Source of the DNA: Bdellovibrio sp. | GTDB taxonomy: Bacteria; Bdellovibrionota; Bacteriovoracia; Bacteriovoracales; Bacteriovoracaceae | Assembly (NCBI GenBank): GCA_020720455.1 | Contig: DYOQ01000017.1 | Span: 1 to 49,559, forward strand | Direction of reading: 5' to 3' | Length of the DNA stretch: 49,559 bases | In this document: positions 24,219 to 46,088 of the stretch, piece by piece | Layout of the letters: each line of letters opens with the position of its first letter | Numbering within the stretch: the stretch's first letter is position 1 | Program-made: the position numbers and the translations under genes | Notes under the pieces: model-generated | The model's database searches: none | Told to the model about the DNA's origin: nothing | What the model saw: the letters and a program-made list of their open reading frames with translations, nothing else

Positions 24219-26000
24219 TTAAATTTTTTGCCTTTTAAAAACTGGACGAAACGCCAATGTTATTCCAAGCAGTACTGTCATTACAAAACCAAAAGGTGGA
24301 AACCCTCCACCACCGCCCTCTGTCGCATCAATTGTTCCGCAAGAGAAAGCACTATCATCCTTAACCTCTTTTTTATCTTCATACTGTAGGACCGCCGCAT
24401 TTGACTTGACGCTATATGTCCCATGAGCATCCGGACAAAGCGTATTATCTCTCAGATTATCATATTTTTTTTCTGAGATTTTTGTCACAACTCCATTCTC
24501 ATATTTCACAACAGAAAATGTTAACAAATAAGATGTCAGCCTCTCTTCAAAATCATCTGCCGCTGGAAAGAAGTAGCTCTTGGATTTACCAACACGAGAC
24601 AAAAAACCAGTTAGCGAACCAGAATCATTTATCATCTCCGGTATGATATCAACCGTAAACAGATTATTGGCCTGAGTATACGACAATGGAATTCTAGCAA
24701 CAATGTCAATATTTCCAGTGTAGTCAATCGTTTCGTAATTACTTAATGGAAAACTATATCCACCTGGCCCAACTTCCATCTTTAACTTCACGCTTGAATA
24801 AAATTTTTGATTAGTAACTCTTACCTCTAAATATTGATTCGAACTTGTTACAGCATGGTCTGAAAGATCAACTAAAAAATGATCCTCCTCTTGTTGCTCT
24901 ACTTGATAGTTTGTAAAAAAACCACTGACACTATCACCTACTGATCCATTAATCGCATCAACTATATTTAGGTTTACAGTCCCACCACCTTTATTACTTA
25001 AATAATCGTTAGATAAACTAGAATCACACCTTACTGTAACATTTCCAACATTTGCATTTTTATTACTGGCAGTTAACAATGTACCTTTAGGAAACCCTTT
25101 CCTAACAGACGCACACTCATAATAAAATGAACCTATGTAATCTCCGCCAGCAAGAGTGCAAAAGTTTTTTCTTCTACTTGAGTAATATGTTGGCAATGAG
25201 GTCAATGCCTCGACTGGTGCTATATAGAGCAAGTATGTTTTATTTAAACCAAGTCCATTAATTACAAATGTTCCATCATCATCTGAGACACCTGCCCCTG
25301 AAATTTTCCCATCTTCTACTGAGTATGCTTCAACGTGAGCTCCAAACACACCAATTAAATTTTCGCCACCAATAATTTTTCCGCTAATTGATCCTAACGA
25401 TTGGTCGCTCATTGGGTACTTAGAATATATACCGGCCCTATCATCATCCGATAGCGTATATTGGCCACCAGTAAGAACATACATCATTGTCGAACCATGT
25501 ACCTGACTATGTCCTAGTCCAAGCAGATGGCCAAGCTCATGAGTAACAATGTCACCAACATAATTATTTCTTCCCCTACTTGTAGAAAGAAACTGCTTAT
25601 CGTTGACCATAATATCAGCACTAATTATCTCACCAGTATACTCTTTATACGCTACCGAAGTAACTCCAAGCACTGCCGAGCCTGGAAAATAAATATTACT
25701 CGTTGAAAAGGTTATGCTATTTCCAAGATAAAGTTCTGTTTCACTATCTGTAAAAACTTTCCTCATGTTAATATCACTAGTGGTATCATTCCACACACTC
25801 ACACTCTCATCAATAATCACTCTTAGTGCTTCATCATCTAATCCTTGTTTGTTACTTGTGCTAATATTTAATGTTATATTTGTTCCTAGGGCCCAACTGA
25901 CATTTTCACCATGCTCGCCAATCGTCCAAACATACGAATGCAAACTTAGGGGAGTAAGCGACACTATCACTAAGAATGTAACGAACTGCCACAACGACAT
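24219..26000 (-). CDS. Exported matrixin-type zinc metalloprotease with C-terminal membrane tail
   Basis: This 593-residue protein has a signal peptide (about 1-22) and a metzincin catalytic domain with HELGHLLGLGH at 154-164 and a following Met residue pair (STMMY) that fits the Met-turn. A carboxypeptidase-regulatory-like beta domain follows (GSISGKIIGGENLIGVFGAHVEAYS) and then long beta-rich regions. The C-terminus is a sorting-like tail: a Cys, a run of five glycines with FPPFG, a single hydrophobic segment and a basic FKRQKI end, similar in layout to GlyGly-CTERM or MYXO-CTERM anchors. It is probably surface-attached or processed by a rhombosortase-like protease. The start at 26000 is preferred because AGGAG is five bases upstream, while the ATG just before leaves only two bases. 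The gene directly follows its partner. Confidence 0.9.
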   Translation of the reverse strand: MSLWQFVTFLVIVSLTPLSLHSYVWTIGEHGENVSWALGTNITLNISTSNKQGLDDEALRVIIDESVSVWNDTTSDINMRKVFTDSETELYLGNSITFSTSNIYFPGSAVLGVTSVAYKEYTGEIISADIMVNDKQFLSTSRGRNNYVGDIVTHELGHLLGLGHSQVHGSTMMYVLTGGQYTLSDDDRAGIYSKYPMSDQSLGSISGKIIGGENLIGVFGAHVEAYSVEDGKISGAGVSDDDGTFVINGLGLNKTYLLYIAPVEALTSLPTYYSSRRKNFCTLAGGDYIGSFYYECASVRKGFPKGTLLTASNKNANVGNVTVRCDSSLSNDYLSNKGGGTVNLNIVDAINGSVGDSVSGFFTNYQVEQQEEDHFLVDLSDHAVTSSNQYLEVRVTNQKFYSSVKLKMEVGPGGYSFPLSNYETIDYTGNIDIVARIPLSYTQANNLFTVDIIPEMINDSGSLTGFLSRVGKSKSYFFPAADDFEERLTSYLLTFSVVKYENGVVTKISEKKYDNLRDNTLCPDAHGTYSVKSNAAVLQYEDKKEVKDDSAFSCGTIDATEGGGGGFPPFGFVMTVLLGITLAFRPVFKRQKI

Positions 26001-26008
26001 CATTACTC

Positions 26009-26728
26009 CTAATCTTTTTTCCAAGATGACATCACCGAGTAAGCACCAAGTAGTGCAAAAAGAATTACAGGCCAAATAATTGTCGACTCACTTGGCTTGT
26101 TTTCATCTAAATCTTCTGAAATAAAAGCAATCTCGCGTCCATCTTTTCTCTGTTTTTCTTTTGCTTCTGCTACAATTTTTGCTTTAGAAGATCCTGTTTT
26201 ATCAGAATGATTATCTGCTAATCTCTGGCCAATACTATTTTTAACAACCTCTTCAAAATGTTGCATAGGAATCGCATTAAGTTTTGGATTTTGAGATGCA
26301 TAACTTGAACCTAAAAAAACTTCCCCACCTTTCCTGTACAAATTGTATTTTGCTAGGCCACTGTTTGTTGGGACATACCCTACTTCACTCTTTGTCACGA
26401 GAACTACAACATTCTCTCCAATAGTAAATCTAGGAGTGCCAGATACATCATACACTACACCTTGCCAAGTACCGCCAGGATATAACAACGCAAAACTATT
26501 GTTGACTCGAATATCCATATAACTTAATCCAGCACTCCGTTCCACCTTAAAGGTGACCTCAGTAAAAACTTGATTAAATCTATAAACGCTATTTTGTTTG
26601 ATTACAGTTCCATGGATAACTGCAGACGCATCTTGCAGTTGTCTCTCTATTGCAATCGGTACAATGGTTGCAGAATTTGCTATAAAGCTAAAAAAATAGA
26701 GCGCGATAAACAAAATTGATTTTGCCAT
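26009..26728 (-). CDS. Exported protein, partner of the matrixin-like protease
   Basis: A 239-residue protein with a signal peptide (about 1-20) and a beta-rich domain of a type often encoded beside matrixin proteases in deltaproteobacteria: IERQLQDASAVIHGTVI, FTEVTFKVERS, GGTWQGVVYDVSG and FTIGENVVVLVT. The C-terminal third is charged (about 160-210), then a single membrane segment (TIIWPVILFALLGAYSVM) and a basic SWKKD end. The layout suggests anchoring in the inner membrane or by a tail signal like that of the protease. The protease gene starts eight bases after the stop, so both are co-transcribed. No enzymatic motif is visible. A GAGGAG ribosome binding site precedes the ATG. Confidence 0.75.
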   Translation of the reverse strand: MAKSILFIALYFFSFIANSATIVPIAIERQLQDASAVIHGTVIKQNSVYRFNQVFTEVTFKVERSAGLSYMDIRVNNSFALLYPGGTWQGVVYDVSGTPRFTIGENVVVLVTKSEVGYVPTNSGLAKYNLYRKGGEVFLGSSYASQNPKLNAIPMQHFEEVVKNSIGQRLADNHSDKTGSSKAKIVAEAKEKQRKDGREIAFISEDLDENKPSESTIIWPVILFALLGAYSVMSSWKKD

Positions 26729-27800: not shown

Positions 27801-30719
27801 TTAAAACGAACCAATTGTCAGGTGGAACCTCCCGACACTCTCCCGCGCAGCATCATTCACCTGCCGCTTTAACTTGACTCCATATTCAAAGTTAAGCGAA
27901 CCAACAGGAGTAATATACTTATAACTTAGCCCAACTGAAGTTCTAACATCAAAAGGAGCAAAATGTCCAACAAAGACCCTTCCACCGTCGAAGAACAATC
28001 CCAACGCAGTACTGTCATCAAGTCGATACCTCTGCTCTATTTTAAAATTACTGAAATATGCTCTGTCCCTTATCGTTATATCACTAATATCCTCGCCAGA
28101 AGATAACATGTTCGATTCAGTATCAGAAAAACCTCTAATTTGATCAAGACCATTAATTCGAAAAACCTTTACGCTTGGAATATAACCATTAGTTTCTACA
28201 TCACCACTTTCATCATAAAGAGTTTCGCCACTTGTCCCACGTTTAACATCTCTGGCCAAGTTTTTCTCAACACCTACTGATGCAAAACAAGCAGTCGTCC
28301 AATTTTTTCCAAAAGGAATATACAACTTATTTCTGCTGATCAAACGAGTATAGTCCACAACCAAGTTAGAATCATCCATTGCTCCATATGATGGATTAGC
28401 AACTTCGTATGAAACCCCCATAAAAAGGCCCGATGTAGGATTTAGTCCATCATTGCGAAGATCCATCGATAATGATCCCATGACACCACCGATTTTAAAC
28501 ATTCCATAATCCTTCTCCTCCGTAGCATCAAACTGTCGAATACTCTCAAACTGGTAACGCAACGAGGTTGAAAAAATAGTTGATAAATTTTTATGAACAC
28601 TTCCAGAAAATCTAAAAATATCTGCATCAAACGAGTAAAATCTTTTTCTATCTCCAGAGGCAGACAACTCACCAACTAGCTCATATCCAAATAGATAGGG
28701 CTCCACATATCCAACGTTAAACATATACTCAAGTCTGCGCACTTGTTCGATCTGACGTCTCTGATCGAAACTATCGAAATCAAGCCTATCATTTAACATA
28801 CCCTTCAGGGACAACACTCTGTTCATTCCGCCAACATTGCTATATGTGACAAGTGACGAAAGCTTAACACCAATATCAGTTCGATACCCTGGAGCGATCT
28901 CAACAGCACCAAAGTTTTTTTCTTTTACATATATCACCAAATTAGCTTCAGCTTCAGCCTCAGTTTCATTTTTAGAATTATCTTTATTAACGACGACAGG
29001 AGAAATCTCTACTACAGAGAAAATTCCAAGCGAGACTAGTCGTCTTTTTATTTTCTCAATCTCTTCTTGTGAAATAACATCACCGAAATTTAAGTTAGTC
29101 GATCGAGTAATCACTTCAGATTTCGTTTCGACATTACCTGAAACAATAACTGTTCTTAGTTTTACTTTAGGGCCAAGCTTCAACGAAAAATGTAGCTTAG
29201 CTTTGGAAAAATTATAGTTATACTCTACAACTTCCCCTGTCTCACCATTTAACATCTCTGCCAACAAGTACCCATCATTTTTAGCAATTTCCAAAGCAAG
29301 ATCTAAGTCTGTTTGCAATAAAACGAGATTTAGCTCACCTCCTATTTTGTTACTTAACTTGCTTAAAATCTTTTTTACTAAATCTTTAGGAGCACTGCGA
29401 CCTGTATCAATACCATCGATATAACATTTCCGACCTTTATCAACTTCGTACTCGACCACAACTCCATTTTTACTCCAAACGACACGAGGTTGTGAAACAA
29501 GAGCTCTAACAAACCCTGTCTCAAACATTTTTTGCTCTAACTGTTTAGTGAATCTCTCGAGGTATTTCTCATCCAAACGATTTACAATGGCCAAGTCTGA
29601 CCCCTTTTCATAATAGTAGTCAGTAAACATCTCCTGTTCCTCACTACTAACTCCAGTGAATTTTATTTCGCTAACCTTTACAAAACTACCTTCAACAATA
29701 TTGAACATATAGTTTTTAAATTTTAGGCCATCACTATCAACTCCCTCTAAAACTCTAAATGTCGGAATAGTATTATATATGCCACTATCTTTATACTCGT
29801 CTACGATTGTCCTAACAACATCCTCATCTGATGTTTTCACTCCTCGATCTCGTAAAGTTTTCTTAATTACAACTTTAAGTTTTTCATCATCAACTAATAC
29901 ATTTCCGAAAAAACTGAGTGCAATTCGCGGGCCAGGGATAACCCTCACCCGCAACTTAACCACCTTAACATCGTCTTCAACTGTTAATAGTCCAGGTAAG
30001 TTTTCAACTGAAGCGAGTAAATATCCATCGGCCATCAACATTTCAACTGTTTTATCTACTGCAAGTTTCACGTCGAGCTTTTTCCAGTTTTTGCCTGCGT
30101 AATCAAAGAAAACTCTATCCAGCCGTTTTCTCATGCTTTCATTATCGGTAATTATTGACACACCACTTATTTTAACAGCTCCAGAATGTTGTACTGTATA
30201 GAGTATATTTACCATGCCGTTTTCTATATCTACCTTACTTTCAACCACAACATTTATATACCCTTGATCGAGGTACCACTGCTTTATCGCAAGAACACCC
30301 TTTGAGACATCTTCTTGGTCATAGAGCATTCCACTTTTGATATTTAAAATAGGAGTGAGTTGCTTCACATCAACAACAACAGGAGTCTTTATATCAACAC
30401 TACCTATTACCGGTCTAAATTCTAACGATAAATCCAACTTTATCTTACCCCCTTCTTTATACAGCGAATATTTGAATTTTATAATTGTAAAATCGTAGAG
30501 CAACGATCTGAGCTCATTCTTAAGCTCAGAAAATCTGTGCTCTTTATTTGCTATGTGCTCAGCAGCTTTCTCTTTGAAGCGAATACAGTATGGGCTATCC
30601 TCGCAATCGACATAAACAGAATCGACTTTAAACTTATCCCTATCGAACGATTCCGAATCATTTGCAAGGGCCGCAAACACTAATATCGAGAAAAATATAT
30701 TACACAGCAATCTTATCAT
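27801..30719 (-). CDS. tamA: Omp85-family outer membrane protein, TamA-like
   Basis: This 972-residue protein is an Omp85 barrel with a signal peptide (RLLCNIFFSILVFAALA) and a long N-terminal set of POTRA domains. Recurrent POTRA signs are PVIGSVDIKTPVV, VKISGVSI, KVSEIKFTGVS and LRTVIVSGNVETK. The final 380 or so residues match the Omp85 barrel (GMFKIGGVMGSLSMDLRNDGLNPTSG) and end in the C-terminal Phe typical of barrels (HLTIGSF). Adjacency to tamB marks it as the TamA partner. The remaining 590 residues would fit more POTRA domains than the three of E. coli TamA. The ATG at 30719 lies four bases after the tamB stop; a TTG at 30740 would overlap tamB. Confidence 0.88.
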   Translation of the reverse strand: MIRLLCNIFFSILVFAALANDSESFDRDKFKVDSVYVDCEDSPYCIRFKEKAAEHIANKEHRFSELKNELRSLLYDFTIIKFKYSLYKEGGKIKLDLSLEFRPVIGSVDIKTPVVVDVKQLTPILNIKSGMLYDQEDVSKGVLAIKQWYLDQGYINVVVESKVDIENGMVNILYTVQHSGAVKISGVSIITDNESMRKRLDRVFFDYAGKNWKKLDVKLAVDKTVEMLMADGYLLASVENLPGLLTVEDDVKVVKLRVRVIPGPRIALSFFGNVLVDDEKLKVVIKKTLRDRGVKTSDEDVVRTIVDEYKDSGIYNTIPTFRVLEGVDSDGLKFKNYMFNIVEGSFVKVSEIKFTGVSSEEQEMFTDYYYEKGSDLAIVNRLDEKYLERFTKQLEQKMFETGFVRALVSQPRVVWSKNGVVVEYEVDKGRKCYIDGIDTGRSAPKDLVKKILSKLSNKIGGELNLVLLQTDLDLALEIAKNDGYLLAEMLNGETGEVVEYNYNFSKAKLHFSLKLGPKVKLRTVIVSGNVETKSEVITRSTNLNFGDVISQEEIEKIKRRLVSLGIFSVVEISPVVVNKDNSKNETEAEAEANLVIYVKEKNFGAVEIAPGYRTDIGVKLSSLVTYSNVGGMNRVLSLKGMLNDRLDFDSFDQRRQIEQVRRLEYMFNVGYVEPYLFGYELVGELSASGDRKRFYSFDADIFRFSGSVHKNLSTIFSTSLRYQFESIRQFDATEEKDYGMFKIGGVMGSLSMDLRNDGLNPTSGLFMGVSYEVANPSYGAMDDSNLVVDYTRLISRNKLYIPFGKNWTTACFASVGVEKNLARDVKRGTSGETLYDESGDVETNGYIPSVKVFRINGLDQIRGFSDTESNMLSSGEDISDITIRDRAYFSNFKIEQRYRLDDSTALGLFFDGGRVFVGHFAPFDVRTSVGLSYKYITPVGSLNFEYGVKLKRQVNDAARESVGRFHLTIGSF

Positions 30720-30723
30720 ATCA

Positions 30724-33700
30724 TTAAAAATCAAACCCAAACTTAAAGTCAGCGCCTACCGATGACGTCGACTCACGATCCATCTCATCTTCAGATTTAA
30801 TTTCATATACTCCTTGCAATTTTACCTTGTCGCTAATTTTTAAATCTACATTCATCTCTTGTTTTTCTCTCATGGTTCCTCCAACTACACTTGATACTGA
30901 GACATCGATTTTTCTACTTATGGCCTTCTTTAGTTTAATTTTAGTTGCAGATTTAAGTCTCATTTGCGCCTTTCCTGTTTTTTGGCTTTCAAGCATACTA
31001 CTATCATCTTCTGCGTACTCTGGAAGAACGCTAACTTTAACACCAAGTTTCTCATTCAACTTCTGATTAAGCTTTAGTTGATCAACAAGCAAGCTTCCAA
31101 TACCAAGGGACGTAACCGATTTAATATCATCGTCATGTAACTCTTTTGTCATGTCAGAGGTGACTCCAATTGCTAACAATGACAATATATCTTCTTTTGG
31201 TAGCAGAGGCTCTGATGATAATAATACTGTCGCATCATCTACTCGACCAACGACTTTAACTGTAACATCATACCTGTCAATTTTGGCCACACCTGAAAAA
31301 CTAACACTCGGAAAACGCTTAACTCTATTATCATCAAAAACAATTGTCCCTTCTTTAATATTAAACTCGTGCCCCTTGAAGAAAAACTTACTATTTCCAG
31401 GAGCGACTGTTATCTCACCAGCTAACAGAGGGGTTTCCATACTACCCCTGACGACGACACCGCCACCAAGAAAAACCGATGCAAAACCATTTTTAATCGA
31501 GATTGTATCTTGTATTCTAACCTCAACATCAGCTACAAATCTATCAATGCCACTACTTCTCCCCTCACGTTTTGGAGCAAATCTTCCGACCTCAACATTT
31601 TTAATTTCATTGCGAAACAGTTCATCAAGCGAATCTTTTATCTGGCCATACTCAACAGTAACGTCTCCGGTTATCTTATATGGAACAGTATCTCCCCTCA
31701 TGTTAAGATTCGTTGACATTACAAAACTACTATCTTTCCCAATCAACAGCTTACAATCATCTGCAACCATCTTTAGGTCGACAGCAGGAAATGGAACCGA
31801 AAATTTTGCTCCGCCATCAACGGTCAACCTGCCTTTACCATAAGTCGCAGAAGCATATTTTATAAATAACTCATCATTTACTACCGAAAATGCAAAGTCA
31901 GAATTTTCAATTACCCCAGGAAGACCCGCAACCTGCAAAATCACATCTCTTCCTAACACATCCAAATGTTGCACAACTTTATCAACTCGACCTTTTATAA
32001 GATTTCGAAATCCAATTTTTCCAACACCTTGTTTAATTGTTGGAGTTATCAACTCTAGCAAAGAAGCATCAAGATTTCCTTCTGTTGTTACGCTGAAATC
32101 TTTTTCAAGCGCTCCCAAACCAAGTGATACTACCTCTGCACCAGCATCTCCACTAACACGAATATCCCAAGTATCAATTATACCATTTTTGACATTCAGA
32201 TAATTTTTGCCACTATCAATGGCCAAATGATAATTTCCATTTGAAAATTCAAATGCATTAACACGTACATGCAAATCTAACTGTCTCCAACGATCAACGG
32301 TAAAATGACTTTCCAAACTTCCTTTTAAAACACCTCTAACTAGAGGATTGATCATATTATGATCAGAGAGCAGCCCTCCAATCACATTCATATTATTGCT
32401 TTCAACATTTAATTTAACGTACGATTTCTCTGTTGGTTCTTTCAAGTTGATATTTGCATCAAGCTCAATAATCCCACCGACAAGATCACCCTTAATAAAA
32501 TAATCTGATGAGTCACTATAAACAGTCAAAAGAGAATCACCAACACTAGTTCCATTTATCTCTCCACTTGTCACCTTCAAATCCATTCTTGAGGTAAAGT
32601 CGAGGATATTGCCATTTCCGTGGAATGCACCTGTGACTTGTCCGTCATACCCTAACTTAAGCGTAGCATATGACTCAAGATCACGAAGATGACCACCATT
32701 TAATGTTACATCGTATTCAACATATTTCTTATTCGCATCATAAAGCGCATTACCTTGAAGCTTACCATTTCTTTTCATCGCAACAATATCGGTTAACTTT
32801 ATTACGTTATCACGGTAATTAAACTTCGTCTCAACATACTCTGCGCCCTCGTGAAATGCTTTAAGTCTACGACCTTTTAACAATCCATGGATCGTCATTT
32901 TAGACTCATCTATTGGTCCAATCACTTTGAACCTCGTAGCATAATCCAGACTAAACTTTGAGTACATCGCTTCATATTCTGGTGGCAGTAAAGCCGCAAA
33001 CATTTTCCGAGAATCTTCCCAGCTCGTTTTTTTAATGTTTGCCTCTATTGAAAGCAACTCATTATTTAAATCTACGTGGCCAGAAGAGTCATACTCTGTC
33101 TGCTGAAAAGAACCTAAGACATCAAATTCTAATTTAGAATTTTTTAATCCATATGAGACGCTTCCATTAATTGTTCCAAGGCCAAGACCAAGTAAAGAAA
33201 AATTTGAAACCTTCGGATTAAACGTCAACACAACATCGTCATATGGGCCACGCACAGAAAAAGGAACTTCACCAACACCAAATAACATAGTCCCACTAAT
33301 CGCTCCAAATTTTTCTAAATCGATCATATTTTCTTTAGATGTAATATCAATTCTGTCACTCGATATAATACCAGTCGCTACCACTCGTGAATTTTTAAAT
33401 GAAAAATCTACATTAAGATCAACCAACTTGTTTCCTTCAGAAAGAAGCTGGAGTTTTGCCGAATTAAATGTAATCATACTATTTTCTAAGATCACGCCCT
33501 TAGTTTTATAATCGAGAAGTTTAAAATCTCTAACGACTGCTCCACTCTTAATAAAAAAGAATTTTTCTTGATCATTGTAAACAAAATCGACTTCTCCTGA
33601 AATATTTCCTTTTATTATATCAAGTTGATTCTGGGGATCATAAAACATATTGGCAAATGTTACCGTTTCAAGACTTAGTGCAAGAGCCAAGCTCTTAACA

Positions 33701-34833
33701 ATTCCACTCTCTCGACTATACACCTGAACTGGCCGTAAAATCTTTACGGTGCCGGCATCTATCTTGAAAACAGCACCCTCAAGCGATGCAGCACCATCTT
33801 TTATAATGGCCTTCATTTCAAAGTCGTCAAATTTGGCAACAGTTGAAGTGATTTTTTTTCCTTTAATATAAACTGTAGCTACTAATGCATCTAATGGGCC
33901 CGCAACTCCAATATCAAACGACAAATGTCCATCATCAATATTTGAACAAACATGTTTAATATTTTTAAAACCTATCTCGTTTATGTTATCAAATTTATTT
34001 ATGTGCTCACACAACTCACCGACGCCACCAATAACATTAACAACTATTTTAGAATCCGCCCCTCCATCTGGATGAACCAGCAGTGAACCGCTCACACCGA
34101 TAGCGCTACTACGCGAAACAATGTTAAACTTTTTAATATCGACGGCCTTTCGATCTATAGATATGTCGAAATTAAATTCATCAACAACTTGAAGCATATT
34201 TAACAAATCAATTTTTGAGCCAATTTGTTGTTTGTTGTATACCAAACCTTTAACGTTAGTGAAGAACCTGCCAATCTCTATTTGCAATGATTTTGCCACA
34301 AAGGCATCATTACGTTTACTAAAAATAAACTCTACCCCCTGAAATGAAAGTGCTCTCACTCTACTTTTTCTCCAAGAAGAGTAGTCTTTTGTTACTTTCT
34401 GCAAAACATTATCTACTTGCTCATTTATTTTAACTTGAGACTTTAACTCGGTACTGTTTTTTTCTAGCAAACTAATAACATCTAACTTGAGAGACCCCCC
34501 ATGCATAGTAATGCTACCAGCAGAAATTTTACTAGCTAGCATATCTTGAATTCCAAAACCAACCTCAACCAATTCAAACTCACCACTGATTCGTCCGATA
34601 CCATCTATCGACGTTTCGACTGAAGCATTGTAAAAATCGATACCAGGAGGAAAGTAACTAAGCCCAATTTTTTCAAACCCAAAATTCATGCTCTGACTTT
34701 CACCCAACAAACTATTAATTTTTTTTGAAATAAAATTAGAAAATAGCTTTGTTTGAAAAAGCTGCCCAAGCGAAACGAAGCTCACAATAACGATTAAGAA
34801 AAATGTAGCAATAATTTTATTAGCGCCTCTCAA
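30724..34833 (-). CDS. tamB: TamB-type intermembrane transport protein
   Basis: TamB-like proteins (AsmA-like superfamily) span the periplasm from an N-terminal inner membrane anchor and are thought to carry phospholipids or to help outer membrane protein assembly with TamA. The 1369-residue protein has one N-terminal membrane segment (about 7-27), then a very long beta-rich region of repeated strands, and the conserved TamB C-terminal domain (about the last 350 residues: FVADVEVRIQDTISIKNGFASV, then FKGHEFNIKEGTIVFDD, then EDILSLLAIGVT). It ends in a short barrel-like segment with terminal Phe. It overlaps the upstream TPR gene by 14 bases and runs directly into tamA. Confidence 0.92.
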   Translation of the reverse strand: MRGANKIIATFFLIVIVSFVSLGQLFQTKLFSNFISKKINSLLGESQSMNFGFEKIGLSYFPPGIDFYNASVETSIDGIGRISGEFELVEVGFGIQDMLASKISAGSITMHGGSLKLDVISLLEKNSTELKSQVKINEQVDNVLQKVTKDYSSWRKSRVRALSFQGVEFIFSKRNDAFVAKSLQIEIGRFFTNVKGLVYNKQQIGSKIDLLNMLQVVDEFNFDISIDRKAVDIKKFNIVSRSSAIGVSGSLLVHPDGGADSKIVVNVIGGVGELCEHINKFDNINEIGFKNIKHVCSNIDDGHLSFDIGVAGPLDALVATVYIKGKKITSTVAKFDDFEMKAIIKDGAASLEGAVFKIDAGTVKILRPVQVYSRESGIVKSLALALSLETVTFANMFYDPQNQLDIIKGNISGEVDFVYNDQEKFFFIKSGAVVRDFKLLDYKTKGVILENSMITFNSAKLQLLSEGNKLVDLNVDFSFKNSRVVATGIISSDRIDITSKENMIDLEKFGAISGTMLFGVGEVPFSVRGPYDDVVLTFNPKVSNFSLLGLGLGTINGSVSYGLKNSKLEFDVLGSFQQTEYDSSGHVDLNNELLSIEANIKKTSWEDSRKMFAALLPPEYEAMYSKFSLDYATRFKVIGPIDESKMTIHGLLKGRRLKAFHEGAEYVETKFNYRDNVIKLTDIVAMKRNGKLQGNALYDANKKYVEYDVTLNGGHLRDLESYATLKLGYDGQVTGAFHGNGNILDFTSRMDLKVTSGEINGTSVGDSLLTVYSDSSDYFIKGDLVGGIIELDANINLKEPTEKSYVKLNVESNNMNVIGGLLSDHNMINPLVRGVLKGSLESHFTVDRWRQLDLHVRVNAFEFSNGNYHLAIDSGKNYLNVKNGIIDTWDIRVSGDAGAEVVSLGLGALEKDFSVTTEGNLDASLLELITPTIKQGVGKIGFRNLIKGRVDKVVQHLDVLGRDVILQVAGLPGVIENSDFAFSVVNDELFIKYASATYGKGRLTVDGGAKFSVPFPAVDLKMVADDCKLLIGKDSSFVMSTNLNMRGDTVPYKITGDVTVEYGQIKDSLDELFRNEIKNVEVGRFAPKREGRSSGIDRFVADVEVRIQDTISIKNGFASVFLGGGVVVRGSMETPLLAGEITVAPGNSKFFFKGHEFNIKEGTIVFDDNRVKRFPSVSFSGVAKIDRYDVTVKVVGRVDDATVLLSSEPLLPKEDILSLLAIGVTSDMTKELHDDDIKSVTSLGIGSLLVDQLKLNQKLNEKLGVKVSVLPEYAEDDSSMLESQKTGKAQMRLKSATKIKLKKAISRKIDVSVSSVVGGTMREKQEMNVDLKISDKVKLQGVYEIKSEDEMDRESTSSVGADFKFGFDF

Positions 34834-40410: not shown

Positions 40411-42183
40411 TTACTGCCTTTCTGTTAAACCGGCCGCTTCCTGGTTTATAACTCTTGGGGTAATAAATATAACCAACTCAGACTTCTCTTCACTCGGATT
40501 AAAACTACTTCTAAAAAACCAACCGATAATTGGAACATCCTTTAAAAAAGGTATTCCCGCGTGAGACTCCTCTTTTTTATATCTGAAGACACCACCTATA
40601 ACAACCGTTGAGCCATTATCGACAAGAACTTCAGTCTTAACAGTTCTAGAATATTTATCATTAGGTGCTCCTGCAATCGCAGATTTTTGAAACTCCTCTT
40701 TCGTTACATCTACATTCATTACAATTGATCCCTCACTAGTTATATGAGGTGTAACTTTCAACTCTAATACAGCATCAGAAGATTGCCAGGTAAATGCCCC
40801 ATTTTGATCTTGGGCACCCTGATAATAAATTGTGTGTTTGCTTGAAATGTTTGCTGCAACGTTATTACTAGTTACAACTTTAGGACTAGAAATTACTCGC
40901 CCTTTTCCTTCTGTCTCCATTAAGCTCAACTGAAAATTTAAATTAGTTAGCCGCTTAAACGCAGAAACATTTAATCCTATTGCAGATGGCCCAGCTGTAG
41001 CAAAACTAAATGATCCACCAGGAGCTGCCAAGGAACTACCACTAGTTAAAGGATCATAACCAAAACTAATACCCTTATTACTTCCAGCATCAGACAAAAA
41101 ACCAATATTCTTAGAATGATTTTCACTCACCTCGACAATTTTTGCTTCAATCAACACCTGTGGAGTTTGAGTATCCAAAACCTTAATTACTTTTTGGATC
41201 TTATCCATATTTTTTTCTGTGTCTCTAACTATTAATGAATTAGTTCTTTTATCTATAGACACATTACCTCTTCCTACAGTCAAATATTTTTCTAAAGTGG
41301 GTTGAATCTCTTCTAGTTTTGCGTAACTCAGAGGAAAAACTTTCGTTACAAGCAGCTCTTCTCTGATTGCTACACTTTGTGCTCGAAGCTCATCTACTTT
41401 TGCTTCGGTCGCTTTTTCAAGAGTGGTTATCATCAAAATATTTCCATTCTTATAAGCGACGAGCTTGTTAAGTTCTAAAATAGTGTCCAGTGCTTGATCC
41501 CAGGGAATATTTGTAAGATTCAGCGTTAAAGGCTTACTATTTTTAACCTCATCTGTAATGATGATATTAAATCCAGAAGAGTCTGCTATCATTTTTAAAA
41601 TATCTTCAACTTTTGTATCTTTAATATTAAAAGATACCTTTTTCCCAATATATCTCTTGCGCCCAGAAAGAGTTAGGTTAGTTAAAATATCATCTATCGA
41701 ACCACTACTTGGAACATTTACGCTATCTTGTACTTCCTTTGAATCTTCATCGCTAAATGCAACATTTGATTCCATCTGTTGCTGTGTAAAAACTCCAAAC
41801 CTATTTTCTACCGCTATTGATATAACATTTTTATTAGTCGTTAAAATAGATCTTGCATTATCTCTTAGCTGAAGCGTTAGCCTAAGATCGTTCTTGCTAT
41901 TTGGTTTTTTGTAAGCAGAAACAAAAACAATCGCACCACTAAACTCCGATGTATCAAACGCTCTTACCACTTTATCACTTGCAACAACATTCTTAAGATC
42001 AATAATAATCTGCTTGTCGTCTGTGACTTGGAATTTTTCTGCTTTAATTCCTTCTTCGTCGAACGTTAAATCTATTTTGCTAATTTCACCACGTTGGAAA
42101 AAATTTATGTCTTTTAGTTCTGAACTAAATCCATTAAGCAGTGGCGCAAGTAAAAATAGTGAAACAAAAATTCCTTTTCTCAT
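40411..42183 (-). CDS. pilQ: Type IV pilus secretin PilQ
   Basis: PilQ forms the outer membrane channel through which the type IV pilus passes. The 590-residue protein has a signal peptide (about 1-20), one AMIN domain (about 25-110) for peptidoglycan contact, an STN domain (VSFNIKDTKVEDILKMIADS), a secretin N1 domain (VFPLSYAKLEEIQPTLEKYL) and the secretin barrel domain with GRVISSPKVVTSNN and the final VPIIGWFFR and ELVIFITPRV. It has one AMIN domain where Myxococcus PilQ has more. It lies at the end of the pilMNOPQ series. Confidence 0.96.
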   Translation of the reverse strand: MRKGIFVSLFLLAPLLNGFSSELKDINFFQRGEISKIDLTFDEEGIKAEKFQVTDDKQIIIDLKNVVASDKVVRAFDTSEFSGAIVFVSAYKKPNSKNDLRLTLQLRDNARSILTTNKNVISIAVENRFGVFTQQQMESNVAFSDEDSKEVQDSVNVPSSGSIDDILTNLTLSGRKRYIGKKVSFNIKDTKVEDILKMIADSSGFNIIITDEVKNSKPLTLNLTNIPWDQALDTILELNKLVAYKNGNILMITTLEKATEAKVDELRAQSVAIREELLVTKVFPLSYAKLEEIQPTLEKYLTVGRGNVSIDKRTNSLIVRDTEKNMDKIQKVIKVLDTQTPQVLIEAKIVEVSENHSKNIGFLSDAGSNKGISFGYDPLTSGSSLAAPGGSFSFATAGPSAIGLNVSAFKRLTNLNFQLSLMETEGKGRVISSPKVVTSNNVAANISSKHTIYYQGAQDQNGAFTWQSSDAVLELKVTPHITSEGSIVMNVDVTKEEFQKSAIAGAPNDKYSRTVKTEVLVDNGSTVVIGGVFRYKKEESHAGIPFLKDVPIIGWFFRSSFNPSEEKSELVIFITPRVINQEAAGLTERQ

Positions 42184-42276
42184 ACAACCTCATCCGTAAG
42201 GTATGATAACTTAACATCATTATATCACATGAAATAATTAGGTGCTACAATAGTTTGCATGTAACGCCAAGCGGCT

Positions 42277-42897
42277 TTATTGTTGTTCAGTAATCAACGG
42301 AATGACCGTCTCTAAATATTCATCTTGTTCATAAATATTTTTTATCTTTTGAACGAGTACAATTCCTCCAGGTAAAATGGCCTTAAGCTCCGCTTCATCT
42401 TCACCAAGCTTCATACCCTCTTTCAGTATATAGGCTTGTCCAGATAAAGACTTTGGATCATTTCCGACCTTTACCAGTGCTCGTCTTGTTTTTCCCATTA
42501 AAATTCCAACCACATAAATATTTGAGAGGGGGACATTAGAAATATCATCGATATTTGAAAAAAATCCTTTTGATTTTTCCATAAATCCTGCTTCCCAATC
42601 TGTTTTCTTCTTATCAACATTGAATGCTTTTTTCTTAAACGGGTCTCGTAAATCCATCGGGTTTTTTATTTTAGTATTCACATTAAGAAATGTATTCGAC
42701 TCGTGCACTTTCTTAATCTCAGCTGGAGTAGGTTCTGGGGCCGGGGTTTCTATTACCTTAGGTTCTTCAACAACAACATTAACATCCGTTGCCTCGACAG
42801 TTTCTAGTGTTGCAGTAGTACTTGTGGCCTCATCATCCTGTGCGAACAAGACCGGGACAAGCATTATAATAATGAGTGCACTAAATACTAATTTCAC
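42277..42897 (-). CDS. pilP: Type IV pilus assembly protein PilP
   Basis: PilP links the inner membrane PilNO complex to PilQ. The 206-residue protein has an N-terminal signal or anchor (LVFSALIIIMLVPVLFAQ) but no lipobox cysteine, unlike the lipoprotein in Neisseria and Pseudomonas. A Thr/Val/Glu/Pro-rich linker follows (about 20-65), then the MDLRDPFKKK motif and the beta-sandwich domain with NIYVVGILMGKTRRALVKV and GGIVLVQKI. Its ATG overlaps the pilO stop by four bases. Confidence 0.92.
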   Translation of the reverse strand: MKLVFSALIIIMLVPVLFAQDDEATSTTATLETVEATDVNVVVEEPKVIETPAPEPTPAEIKKVHESNTFLNVNTKIKNPMDLRDPFKKKAFNVDKKKTDWEAGFMEKSKGFFSNIDDISNVPLSNIYVVGILMGKTRRALVKVGNDPKSLSGQAYILKEGMKLGEDEAELKAILPGGIVLVQKIKNIYEQDEYLETVIPLITEQQ

Positions 42898-43553
42898 TCT
42901 TTTTTTCTCCTTTTGCCCTTTCCTTTTTCTGTTCCACCATTATCTTGATCAGATTCCTCCGCCGTAACTAAATCATCAATTCCTCTATTCTCTTTAAACA
43001 TTGGATTAAATCTGTATGCTTCTATTTCAAACTCACAGTCAATCACTTGAAATCTTCCTCGACGACCACTGGCCCGAGTAATTTTAACTGTGCTTATATT
43101 AAAAATTCTCTCTAGTTCGCCAATTTTTTCAAAGAAAATTAGTATCTGAATAAACGTACCAGAAGCTTTTACATTATATTTTTTTGAAACATAAAAATCC
43201 ACTGTGGCCTCAGGCCCCGGACTGAGTTTAGTATCTCTAAATTTAATATCTCTAGAAATATTTATAAACAGTTGGTTATTTTCCGTATCAGAAATTGTCT
43301 CTGGGAGTTTCCGTTGTAACGCCTCAACCTCTTGAGCAACCTTTTCTACACGCTCTTTGGCCTCTTCAAGTTTATCTTTAAAGGCTTTTATTTTTTCTAG
43401 TTTTTTCTGGTTTTCCTTAATTGAAGATCGCTGAATCGCCATCTGATCATTTAGCTCAAGCTTCCTATTTTCATTCGCCTCCCACATAGTATAGTAATAC
43501 CACCCAGCATAAAGAATTAGCCCGAAATGTGAAAGCTTAACTAAAGTACTCAA
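42894..43553 (-). CDS. pilO: Type IV pilus inner membrane protein PilO
   Basis: PilO pairs with PilN to form the periplasmic ring scaffold. The 219-residue protein has one N-terminal membrane segment (about 9-25), a coiled coil (about 30-85: LEKIKAFKDKLEEAKERVEK) and a ferredoxin-like C-terminal domain (VKASGTFIQILIFFEKIGELERI). An odd feature is the very basic C-terminal tail, with KGKGKRRKKE after an acidic patch. It begins 12 bases after pilN. Confidence 0.92.
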   Translation of the reverse strand: MSTLVKLSHFGLILYAGWYYYTMWEANENRKLELNDQMAIQRSSIKENQKKLEKIKAFKDKLEEAKERVEKVAQEVEALQRKLPETISDTENNQLFINISRDIKFRDTKLSPGPEATVDFYVSKKYNVKASGTFIQILIFFEKIGELERIFNISTVKITRASGRRGRFQVIDCEFEIEAYRFNPMFKENRGIDDLVTAEESDQDNGGTEKGKGKRRKKE

Positions 43554-43565
43554 ATAAAATAACCT

Positions 43566-44168
43566 TTACTCATATCTGTTAATAGTTCCCTTGATTGTAA
43601 ATATCTCTTCCCTTACTGACTTATTTCCAATACCCATTACCTCTTTGGTAGAAAAATCAGGCAATGTCAGCGATTGATTAAAATATATAGAGGCATTTGC
43701 ACCATCTTTAAAACTTCCAATACTCGCATATTGTGCAGCTCCACCCTTAATCTCAATATCTTTATTTTGAATAATAATGGAATCAATCCAGAGGTCATCT
43801 GGAATATTTCTAGCAATATGTAACAATAAATTCATCGGGTTGGTTCTTCGATTTATTACTTCCTGAGCCTGCTCCCCGCGTTTTTTTAAAAGTTCAATTC
43901 TTTGTTCAAATTTTTCAATCTCATCTTGAGTCTGCCTCTCTCTTCTAATCTCATCTTTTAACTGATTTGCTTCACCTGCTACCTTGCCTAGCTCTGTCTG
44001 AATAACGACCACTTCACCTTCAAAGAATGGAACAACGAACATTTCTGGAACAAAGAAAATCACAAGTGCAACTATCCATCCAATCATACTAACGTTAGCA
44101 AGTTCTATCCCCAAAACTTTCGGAAGTTTAAATTTAGTTTTCTTCCCGAGGAGATTTACTCGAATCAT
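43566..44168 (-). CDS. pilN: Type IV pilus inner membrane protein PilN
   Basis: PilN binds the cytosolic PilM through its short N-terminal tail, visible here as MIRVNLLGKK. One membrane segment (about 27-50) is followed by a coiled coil (about 55-100: GEANQLKDEIRRERQTQDEIEK) and a periplasmic domain with NIPDDLWIDSI. The 200-residue length is normal. Its ATG overlaps the pilM stop. Confidence 0.92.
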   Translation of the reverse strand: MIRVNLLGKKTKFKLPKVLGIELANVSMIGWIVALVIFFVPEMFVVPFFEGEVVVIQTELGKVAGEANQLKDEIRRERQTQDEIEKFEQRIELLKKRGEQAQEVINRRTNPMNLLLHIARNIPDDLWIDSIIIQNKDIEIKGGAAQYASIGSFKDGANASIYFNQSLTLPDFSTKEVMGIGNKSVREEIFTIKGTINRYE

Positions 44169-45268
44169 TCGTCAACCCTCCTCATCGCTAGGCCCATTGC
44201 TACAATACACGTATAGGCAATTTCATTGACTACTCTTTCGCCAAATTTTTTTTCATCTATTTTTATTCTATTAAATGGATTAAGCACTTCTGCTTTTAAT
44301 CCAAGTGCTTCTGAAATTCCATCAACTAAACCTGGCGTCTGAGCGCCACCACCTGTGACATAACAGTTTGTTAGTGAATCATCGGAAGAGGAGCTATTGT
44401 AAAACTCCAAAGTACTCTTTAACTCTTTAAAAAATACCTCCGCAACACCACTAATAATATCTAAAATCTCTTCCGGCAAATTTCCTTTACTATCATACGT
44501 AACCTTCAAGTCTTCAGCTTCTGCAAAATTTAAACCCATCTGACGCTGAATCTCTTCAGTCATTGCCATACTTCCAACATTGATATCTTTACTAAATACT
44601 ATCGCGCCAGAGCGAACAATTATAAAATTGGTTATACTTGAACCGATATCAAGCAACAACCATGAATCATCGCTATCAGTAAGTGCATCTTCATAAATAT
44701 GAAAAAAAATGTTTGCAAGAGCTATAGAATCTAAATCTAAAACCTTTAATGATAAACCAGCAGATCTTACAATATGCTTATATTTGTCGACAGTATCTCT
44801 GCTAACAGCAGCGCCCATCACCTCCAAACCACCACTCTCATCTTTTGCTAACAAGTCATAAGAGAACACAGCTTTTTCCGTATCAAAAGTCAAAAAACTT
44901 TCTAACTCCCATGCGACCTGATCTTCAATTTCATCTTGGGCCCCATCATTAATTTGAAGTTTTTTTGCAATGGCACCATTTCCTGCAACGCCTGCACAAA
45001 CATTATTACACGACACTTTTGACGATTTAACTATATCTTTAATTGCATCTACAACTACAGTCTCTTCATTAATGTTTCCTTCACTTATCGTACCTTCTGG
45101 AAACTCAGCGGCTGCATAAGAGACAACTCTATACTCACCCTTACTCTGTTCAAGTTTAATAAGTTTTACTGAGCTATTTCCAATATCTAGACCAAATAAC
45201 TCAGAAGAACCTAAATTAAACCGATCCTTTAAATCATCAATCAAATCATTAATACTTTGCGCCGCCAT
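44165..45268 (-). CDS. pilM: Type IV pilus assembly ATPase-like protein PilM
   Basis: PilM is an actin-like ATP-binding protein in the cytosol that forms a ring with the PilN tail. The ATG at 45268 gives 367 residues. The nucleotide fold shows FGLDIGNSSVKLIKL (phosphate 1), LLLDIGSSITNFIIV (phosphate 2) and CYVTGGGAQTPGLVDGISE (adenosine). A 12-residue N-terminal extension to 45304 is possible but looks unlike the family. Only about 45 bases separate it from pilD. Confidence 0.94.
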   Translation of the reverse strand: MAAQSINDLIDDLKDRFNLGSSELFGLDIGNSSVKLIKLEQSKGEYRVVSYAAAEFPEGTISEGNINEETVVVDAIKDIVKSSKVSCNNVCAGVAGNGAIAKKLQINDGAQDEIEDQVAWELESFLTFDTEKAVFSYDLLAKDESGGLEVMGAAVSRDTVDKYKHIVRSAGLSLKVLDLDSIALANIFFHIYEDALTDSDDSWLLLDIGSSITNFIIVRSGAIVFSKDINVGSMAMTEEIQRQMGLNFAEAEDLKVTYDSKGNLPEEILDIISGVAEVFFKELKSTLEFYNSSSSDDSLTNCYVTGGGAQTPGLVDGISEALGLKAEVLNPFNRIKIDEKKFGERVVNEIAYTCIVAMGLAMRRVDE

Positions 45269-45314
45269 ATAAAGATTATAGCTGATCGAACCAATTATTA
45301 TCAAGTAATTAATA

Positions 45315-46088
45315 TTACTTAAACTCTAGAAGAGACTCTATTATTCCAGGAAAAAATATTTGAACAAAAGCGACAACTATTATAAATGGCCCAAATGGAA
45401 TCTGTGTATCGCGCCCTTTTTTCGTTACAAGTAAAAATATTCCACCAAGAATAGCGCCTGAAAAACAACTAAAAAAAATGTTATTAATTATTCCAAGAGG
45501 ACCAAGATATAATCCTAAAGCGCCAAACAGCTTTATATCACCACCACCAAGTCCGACTACTCCTCTTACTTTGTAAAAAATCCAAGTAACAAACCATGGA
45601 AACAAAAGTCCAACCGCTCCACCAACTAACCAATAAAGTAACGACTCATGAAGAAGTGACCATGCAAGAAAAATCATGGCCAAATAAAGATTCAGTGAAT
45701 CAGGTAAAATTTTGTGTCTAAAATCTATAACAAAGTGAACGATAAAAACTGAGACAACACTAAACTTAAACAAAAAAGGCGCAATACTATCAACTCCTAT
45801 CTTTCCATCGAAAATTAAAATGGCGGCCAGGCCCATAATAAGCTCAACAATAATATACTGAATGGAAATATGAACTTTGCACTTAGCACATTTCCCTCTT
45901 AAAACAAGATAGCTGACAAGTGGAATATTCTGGTACCATTTCAGAACAGCACCACACTGTGTACAGTGTGATCTTTTAAAAACCACATCTTCATCTTTAG
46001 GTAAACGACAAATTAGTACATTTAAAAAGCTACCGATCATCGTACCGAAGATAAATACAAGAACATAAAAAAAAGTAATGACACTCAA
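45315..46088 (-). CDS. pilD: Prepilin peptidase and N-methyltransferase PilD
   Basis: PilD cuts and N-methylates prepilins in the inner membrane. The 257-residue protein has several membrane segments, the four zinc-binding cysteines C42, C45, C67 and C70 in the methylase loop, and the two catalytic aspartates of this peptidase family: D122 in FVIDFRHKILPD and D184 in GGGDIKLFG. Its start overlaps the stop of the ABC permease gene, as in the Myxococcus pil locus where pilD follows pilI. Confidence 0.95.
   Translation of the reverse strand: MSVITFFYVLVFIFGTMIGSFLNVLICRLPKDEDVVFKRSHCTQCGAVLKWYQNIPLVSYLVLRGKCAKCKVHISIQYIIVELIMGLAAILIFDGKIGVDSIAPFLFKFSVVSVFIVHFVIDFRHKILPDSLNLYLAMIFLAWSLLHESLLYWLVGGAVGLLFPWFVTWIFYKVRGVVGLGGGDIKLFGALGLYLGPLGIINNIFFSCFSGAILGGIFLLVTKKGRDTQIPFGPFIIVVAFVQIFFPGIIESLLEFK

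Follow-up and report, generated by a model that had tools for sequence, protein, structure and literature searches.

C-terminal sorting tails known so far have led to their enzymes, and two such systems are the closest described counterparts of the tail analyzed here. MYXO-CTERM tails, associated with myxosortase (MrtX, CPBP family), share with it a signature Cys, a helix and a basic end, as well as their occurrence on many different secreted proteins and a connection to type II secretion (T2SS). In the available part of PMC11980579, the generic MYXO-CTERM signature is given as GCGC, as compared with C-[GA]-[ST]-[IV] here, the Cys is thought to be lipidated, with Lgt as a leading candidate, and substrates are reported to leave by the T2SS. 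GlyGly-CTERM tails, associated with rhombosortase, have the same Gly-rich stretch, helix and basic end and are found on surface proteases exported by the T2SS; their signature, however, never contains a Cys according to the available part of PMC3237569, whereas the tail described here does. A Cys adjoining a stretch rich in G/S or N/D is also described, in the available part of PMC12802150, for GspN-dependent T2SS surface lipoproteins such as InvL and PulA, in which the Cys is N-terminal (lipobox) rather than C-terminal; in A. baumannii, lipoproteins are marked for export by the T2SS through a Cys with G/S- or N/D-rich residues after it. The available part of a Halobacteriovorax paper (PMC12724312) reports a T2SS in Bdellovibrionota. 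Literature searches on MYXO-CTERM and myxosortase, on other Cys tails and on sorting in Bdellovibrio, Bacteriovorax and Bdellovibrionota returned no description of the tail in this lineage among the matches listed, and the terms looked for were absent from the available part of a comparative genomics paper on Bdellovibrionota (PMC11656739).

A matrixin operon with a Cys-type C-terminal tail

The window, the whole stretch of 49,559 nucleotides of a Bdellovibrio sp. contig that was analyzed, encodes the following features.

24219..26003, minus strand: secreted matrixin (metzincin) protease, 594 aa, PF00413 E=1e-13, with a signal-peptide-like N-terminus and a C-terminal Cys tail
25509..25541, minus strand: zinc site HELGHLLGLGH, residues 155-165, with invariant positions in 27/27 orthologues
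24222..24341, minus strand: C-terminal tail (residues 555-594) made up of the CGTI signature, a linker, a membrane helix and a basic end, present in 27/27 orthologues
24330..24341, minus strand: signature Cys555-Gly-Thr-Ile, the Cys invariant in 27/27 orthologues and also in 72/72 tabulated tails, where a Cys pattern was required for entry
24303..24317, minus strand: five-glycine run, residues 563-567, in the linker, from the sequence
24249..24293, minus strand: hydrophobic segment, residues 571-585, from the sequence
26009..26728, minus strand: operon partner of no known family, 239 aa, with a signal-peptide-like N-terminus and a C-terminal membrane segment and without a tail Cys
26030..26080, minus strand: membrane segment of the partner, residues 217-233, from the sequence
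26123..26137, minus strand: residues 198-202 of the partner, REIAF, corresponding to an R-x-[P/I/V]-A-S motif, R198 being nearly invariant in alignment A3

The initial annotation had described a matrixin and an operon partner at these positions, both with a C-terminal membrane segment and a basic end, and ORF analysis and the PF00413 match (51.9 bits against a cut-off of 24 in the Pfam scan) bear this out; residues 555-594 of the protease likewise contain the Cys, five glycines, single membrane segment and basic end that it had listed. The HExxHxxGxxH zinc site and the Met-turn (S171/M173) of matrixins are found in all 27 orthologues, with H155, E156, H159, G162, H165, S171 and M173 invariant. 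The partner precedes the matrixin, five bases upstream of its likeliest start at 26003 (MMSLW...); an alternative TTG start at 26075 would give a longer protein overlapping the partner.

The window matrixin was searched against 59 genomes, comprising the window's genome (G000), 36 others of the same family (f1) and 22 from other families of the phylum. Matches were obtained in 43 of the 59 genomes and full-length orthologues in 27 of the 37 family genomes, the window's own included, the 26 proteins from relatives being 29-39% identical to the window matrixin. In a search of named genomes, a Hymenobacter match over 37 residues was taken as spurious. The gene order partner, matrixin, AMIN-like gene and lon is kept at orthologous loci, with the partner upstream in at least 24 of 27 loci (own included), an ORF of AMIN-like size downstream in all 27 and lon-like sequence within the stretch read in 26; the AMIN-like gene of the window matches PF11741 weakly (17.1 of 20.5 bits). 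The nearest curated family of the catalytic domain, at E=6.7e-12 and 45 bits against a cut-off of 250, is the "myxosortase-dependent metalloprotease" family MXAN_2677/2678, a further likeness to the MYXO-CTERM system. Two ribosomal genes away from the operon sits a TamA/TamB-like pair (27801-34833), in which an Omp85/POTRA protein (PF01103, PF07244) adjoins a 1369-aa ORF that appears TamB-like by eye.

The matrixin ends in ...SCGTIDATEGGGGGFPPFGFVMTVLLGITLAFRPVFKRQKI, with Cys555, five glycines, one hydrophobic segment and a basic end. A Cys tail is kept in all 27 full-length orthologues, the window's included, in the form C-[G/A/N]-[S/T/M/A]-[I/V/L/W] followed by a linker rich in G/P/N/S/D, a single membrane helix and then basic residues. 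The stricter C[GA][ST][IVL] is present in 22 of the 27, the others reading CGMI (twice), CNSI, CGAI and CGTW. Alignment columns with at least 90% identity include the zinc site, Cys 282, 297, 326 and 523, and Cys555, which is the only such column within the tail and the fifth invariant Cys of the orthologues. The five-glycine run is particular to the window copy and is not kept as a run in orthologues; the conserved part of the tail is the Cys and three residues. Outside the family, three orthologue-like proteins (L028, L029, L030) end in CGTV, CGSI and CSSV tails. C[GA][ST][IVL] was found 33-70 residues from the end in none of 612 control ORFs, which were mechanically predicted in loci retrieved for unrelated purposes and have at least 80 aa and a complete C-terminus.

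Distribution of the tail across proteins and genomes

A profile of the tail (A1) was built from 24 matrixin tails, after exclusion of L010, L016, L017 and L028-L030 from the 30 first tails; the window tail, itself among these 24, matches it at E=1.0e-11. The profile finds the tail on S8 subtilases, on matrixins of about 255-290 aa and on secreted proteins without a family. Forty places matched by A1 were fetched and six more loci used, and ORFs of the stated length were read in 45 cases; L060 contained no such ORF, and L057 extends to the limit of the sequence fetched for it. Tail-bearing subtilases comprise proteins of 1350 aa (L074), 541 aa (L079), 1364 aa (L101) and 902 aa (L109), with PF00082 E-values of 5e-30 to 7e-65, and secreted proteins matching no family are represented by L078 (in Pfam and NCBIfam), L080 (in Pfam) and L103 (in NCBIfam). 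As judged by eye, most tail proteins have a signal-peptide-like N-terminus, the start being unclear in a few. L109, encoded in a genome of family f2 (G052), carries the tail signature CGTI; a lipobox-like N-terminus (LLSC) is present on this 902-aa protease in addition to the C-terminal Cys tail.

The window's genome contains two matches to the tail profile, the window protease and a second matrixin (G000:C8:8186-8290; L072:2539-3327). Looking for the same tail elsewhere in the proteome, as the initial annotation had proposed, therefore yields one other protein. The annotation had held that a tail unique to these proteins would speak against a sorting system; such uniqueness is false, since the tail occurs on unrelated secreted proteins and in most genomes of the family. 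A second profile (A2), built from 69 tails with L016, L029 and L030 excluded, finds matches at E<=0.02 in 116 of 129 family genomes, in 69 of the 73 with a completeness of 90% or more and a contamination of 5% or less, and in 84 of the 92 from which no tail entered the profile. Tail matches are near universal across the genomes of the family. Similarity of the catalytic domain led to 17 shorter matrixins not already obtained via the tail profile; 10 of them end in a C-x-[S/T] tail, two have another Cys tail and five lack a Cys in their last 65 residues, so the tail is not universal among these relatives. The distribution supports the view that the tail is a shared C-terminal signal, GlyGly-/MYXO-CTERM-like in architecture, on several unrelated secreted proteins.

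The properties of the tail were tabulated for 72 instances, leaving out L060 (no ORF) and L099, L110 and L111 (Cys with other spacing). Because entry required the Cys pattern and 42 of the 72 tails were found by profile, the resulting figures describe the tail rather than test it. The residue preceding the Cys is S, A or G in 66 tails; position +1 is G in 59 and A in 10, +2 is S in 37 and T in 31, +3 is I in 38, V in 28 and L in 5, and +4 is D in 30 and E in 7. Residues G, P, N, S, D and Q make up 76% of the linker, and the most hydrophobic window lies a median of 16 residues (range 10-23) from the Cys. A 17-residue window with a mean Kyte-Doolittle value of at least 1.6 is present in 70 of the 72 tails and a net positive end in 71.

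Comparison with known sorting systems and search for processing enzymes

Scans of the 69 tails against NCBIfam and Pfam named no sorting family convincingly. The MYXO-CTERM model TIGR03901 matched three of the 69 (best E 0.014) and gave no match to the whole window protein at E<=10, while Loki-CTERM, a GlyGly-CTERM family and VPDSG-CTERM matched one tail each, weakly. The MYXO-CTERM arrangement of signature Cys, helix and basic end is present in the window tail; the CPBP enzyme of that system, however, is lacking, with no match to PF02517 (CPBP, myxosortase-type) at E<=1 in the window's genome, an assembly that is 96.85% complete. With regard to GlyGly-CTERM, a Cys is present in 27 of 27 orthologue tails and the cut-off of the rhombosortase model TIGR03902 is exceeded in none of the 59 genomes. 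The tail thus fails the tested MYXO-CTERM features (model, enzyme) and GlyGly-CTERM features (absence of Cys, enzyme). The likeness to both systems suggested by the initial annotation stands for the overall architecture and for the Cys, which is of the MYXO type, and does not extend to the curated models and expected enzymes. The linker next to the tail Cys is similar in composition to the G/S- or N/D-rich export stretch described for A. baumannii in the available part of PMC12802150, a resemblance only, and GspN, on which InvL and PulA depend, was not identified here with NCBIfam or Pfam.

Weak rhomboid matches (E<=0.01) occur in 43 of the 59 genomes, the window's genome not among them, and CPBP proteins exceed the PF02517 cut-off in 38. 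Within the family, 12 of 37 genomes have no rhomboid match and 14 no CPBP over cut-off, and six (G000, G001, G026, G028, G030, G031) are without both. Of these six, G000, G026 and G028 combine tails with a completeness of at least 90%: G028 (91% complete) has neither a rhomboid nor a CPBP match, and G026 (99% complete) has no rhomboid match and a sub-cut-off CPBP match only (E=0.029). Of 18 CPBP loci tried in relatives, 16 gave an ORF and 10 were scanned, none of which reaches the myxosortase-type cut-off (best 42 of 130 bits). No sorting enzyme was noticed by eye among the neighbors of tail proteins in the loci read. Rhombosortase and CPBP/myxosortase were both rejected as the tail enzyme for the window's genome as assembled. 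The statement that no sorting enzyme is encoded nearby consequently holds genome-wide for the two classes searched; the rhombosortase-type protease that the annotation had suggested looking for did not turn up, and the absence of a sorting enzyme from the genome, which it had regarded as adverse to a sorting system, is observed for the rhomboid and CPBP classes. Extra LspA copies are found in relatives; the window's genome encodes one LspA, and a paralogue of this enzyme was discarded as a candidate for lack of an extra copy.

Tail cysteine and type II secretion

Beyond residue 30 of the open frame, 13 of the 72 tail proteins, including the second one of the window's genome, have no Cys other than that of the tail, and the other Cys are even in number in 66 of the 72. 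The tail Cys is therefore without an obvious partner, which favors modification over an intramolecular disulfide; a disulfide role was considered and is unlikely on the same counts.

A type II secretion operon (GspC-D-E-F-G) is present in the window's genome on contig C86 (L248), where GspD, GspE, GspF and GspG exceed their NCBIfam cut-offs and GspC_delta (114.8 of 150 bits) and GspK (46.7 of 130 bits) remain below theirs. A search with PF03934 (GspK) was uninformative, its matches in family f1 being ORFs of 670-839 aa and Bacillus subtilis matching as well. GspG is present in 57 of the 59 genomes and absent from G031 and G056, and G031 (86% complete) carries a tail without a GspG match. Within the window, a prepilin-peptidase-like ORF (45315-46088) lies beside pilM/N/O/P/Q-like ORFs (40411-45304), as read from the sequence, and could also serve the pseudopilins of type II secretion.

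Proposed function of the tail and alternative explanations

The balance of the evidence tips slightly towards a C-terminal sorting tail of the Cys type that is particular to the lineage, functions in the manner of MYXO-CTERM, is probably lipidated and serves type II export. We infer lipidation, cleavage, route and surface location along the following lines. The protein would be exported by Sec via its N-terminal signal peptide, and the C-terminal helix would halt in the inner membrane, leaving the basic end on the cytoplasmic side and the unpaired signature Cys in the periplasm. There the Cys would receive a lipid, with an Lgt-type enzyme as the likeliest catalyst; a peptidase would then remove the tail helix, or the helix would be retained, and the protease would be exported by type II secretion to the cell surface. 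Several observations count against this reading. The window's genome has no CPBP or rhomboid match, and with no processing enzyme found the tail might act simply as an anchor; the Cys precedes the most hydrophobic window by 10-23 residues, a greater distance than that of a lipobox Cys from its hydrophobic stretch; and there remain the tail of G031 without a GspG match and the five shorter matrixins without a tail Cys. A plain inner-membrane anchor, in which a stop-transfer helix holds periplasmic proteases and the Cys has a structural or contact role, would agree with the missing rhomboid and CPBP enzymes and with the partner ending in an ordinary helix without Cys. For anchoring alone, however, there would be no need to keep C-[GA]-[ST]-[IV] invariant across unrelated proteins, and this reading leaves unaccounted for a Cys without an obvious partner and a signature that is fixed where linker and helix vary freely; we regard it as rather unlikely, with an appreciable minor share of the probability. 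A true MYXO-CTERM/myxosortase system, whose CPBP enzyme would have escaped detection through divergence or through a gap in the assembly, appears quite improbable. The Cys-type tail, the fact that TIGR03901 is the only NCBIfam sorting model matching more than one tail and the frequency of CPBP proteins over cut-off in the 59 genomes fit it, but no CPBP match at E<=0.1 is found in 12 of the 37 family genomes, 10 of which have a tail match at E<=0.02, among them G016 (100% complete, four tail matches) and G005 (92%, six tail matches). Conversely, G003 and G018 encode CPBPs and have no tail match at E<=0.02, and the CPBPs scanned in relatives fall short of the myxosortase type.

A further explanation concerns the Lgt paralogues of the family as candidates for tail lipidation. 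At least two PF01790 (Lgt) matches are present in 31 of 37 f1 genomes and in 111 of 129 family genomes, with three in the window's genome. Phylogenetic analysis of 80 Lgt sequences, with a bootstrap that had not settled, gave two main classes (A and B), class C, which is divergent, and class D. Class C occurs in 27 genomes, beside an LspA match in 25 of the 27, and in 26 it has a GRxGCxxAGCCYG-type motif in place of RxGNxxNxE. The three Lgt genes of the 2.7 Mb window genome (L162, L163, L164) include one with a Cys-rich GRLGCLLAGCCYG motif that adjoins lspA. A second Lgt, either the lspA-linked class C or class D, acting as a dedicated enzyme of tail lipidation would be in keeping with the combination of a main (A or B) and a second (C or D) Lgt in 31 of 37 f1 genomes, and with the ten f1 genomes without class C, six of which (G002, G010, G012, G026, G027, G033) carry class D and all of those six tails. 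Neither class is found in G003, G008, G018 and G030, yet tails are present in G008 and G030. Across the 129 genomes, a main but no second Lgt is found in 4 of 13 genomes without a tail match versus 4 of 116 with one (p=0.0036), "no second Lgt" being called from E-values and bit scores outside the 37 genomes of the tree; moving G030 changes the counts to 3/12 versus 5/117 (p=0.027, uncorrected for phylogeny or completeness), and restriction to good genomes gives p=0.11. As nearly every genome of the family has both traits, the power of the test across it is low. A Cys-motif Lgt beside an LspA match also occurs in G050 and G054, which belong to other families, so it may be an ordinary lipoprotein enzyme, and a dedicated role of the second Lgt is considered improbable.

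A more far-reaching reading, to which we give somewhat less than even odds, is that the tail belongs to a new C-terminal sorting system of the Cys type, shared by all or nearly all of the family, whose anchor would be made without rhombosortase or myxosortase. This would require either a new class of intramembrane peptidase or lipoprotein machinery (Lgt, perhaps a dedicated second one) acting on a C-terminal Cys, generating C-terminal lipoproteins exported by type II secretion. The tail spans the family, marks secreted proteases and occurs in genomes that have no match to either enzyme class of the tails most similar to it; an enzyme search can thereby start from a collection of substrates and from several genomes that are candidate negatives, and it bears on which enzyme lipidates MYXO-CTERM cysteines.

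The operon partner and a possible second envelope-sorting motif

The partner ends in ...STIIWPVILFALLGAYSVMSSWKKD, a membrane segment and basic end with neither a Cys nor a Gly run. The similarity of the two operon products noted in the initial annotation hence holds for the membrane segment and basic tail, and not for a common tag, the Cys being absent. The pair might lie at the surface and act on prey or matrix proteins, as that annotation had proposed. Sixteen partners, the window's P0002 and 15 of 22 partner sequences, were aligned (A3); none of the 16 matched a Pfam family, and the search of PDB sequences gave no relative, its two matches having E-values of 0.7 and 1. A single-sequence structure model of the partner has a pLDDT of 40.5. 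The R-x-[P/I/V]-A-S motif of the partner family sits upstream of the C-terminal helix. In 930 predicted ORFs, exact R.PAS occurs 15 times versus 1.7 expected by composition, its carriers comprising 11 partners, two lipoproteins and one unrelated ORF in L129. In both lipoproteins (L167:300-2013 and L181:2762-4559), which are apparently related, the motif directly follows the lipobox Cys, and both adjoin a class D Lgt. Motifs of the R.PAS type may represent another signal for sorting within the envelope. A small secreted-looking protein likewise lies ahead of the second matrixin, with 119 aa in the window's genome (L072:2131-2490, contig C8) and 107 aa in G016 (L267:4116-4436); these proteins contain cysteines and match no Pfam family, and matrixins seem to travel with a small partner.
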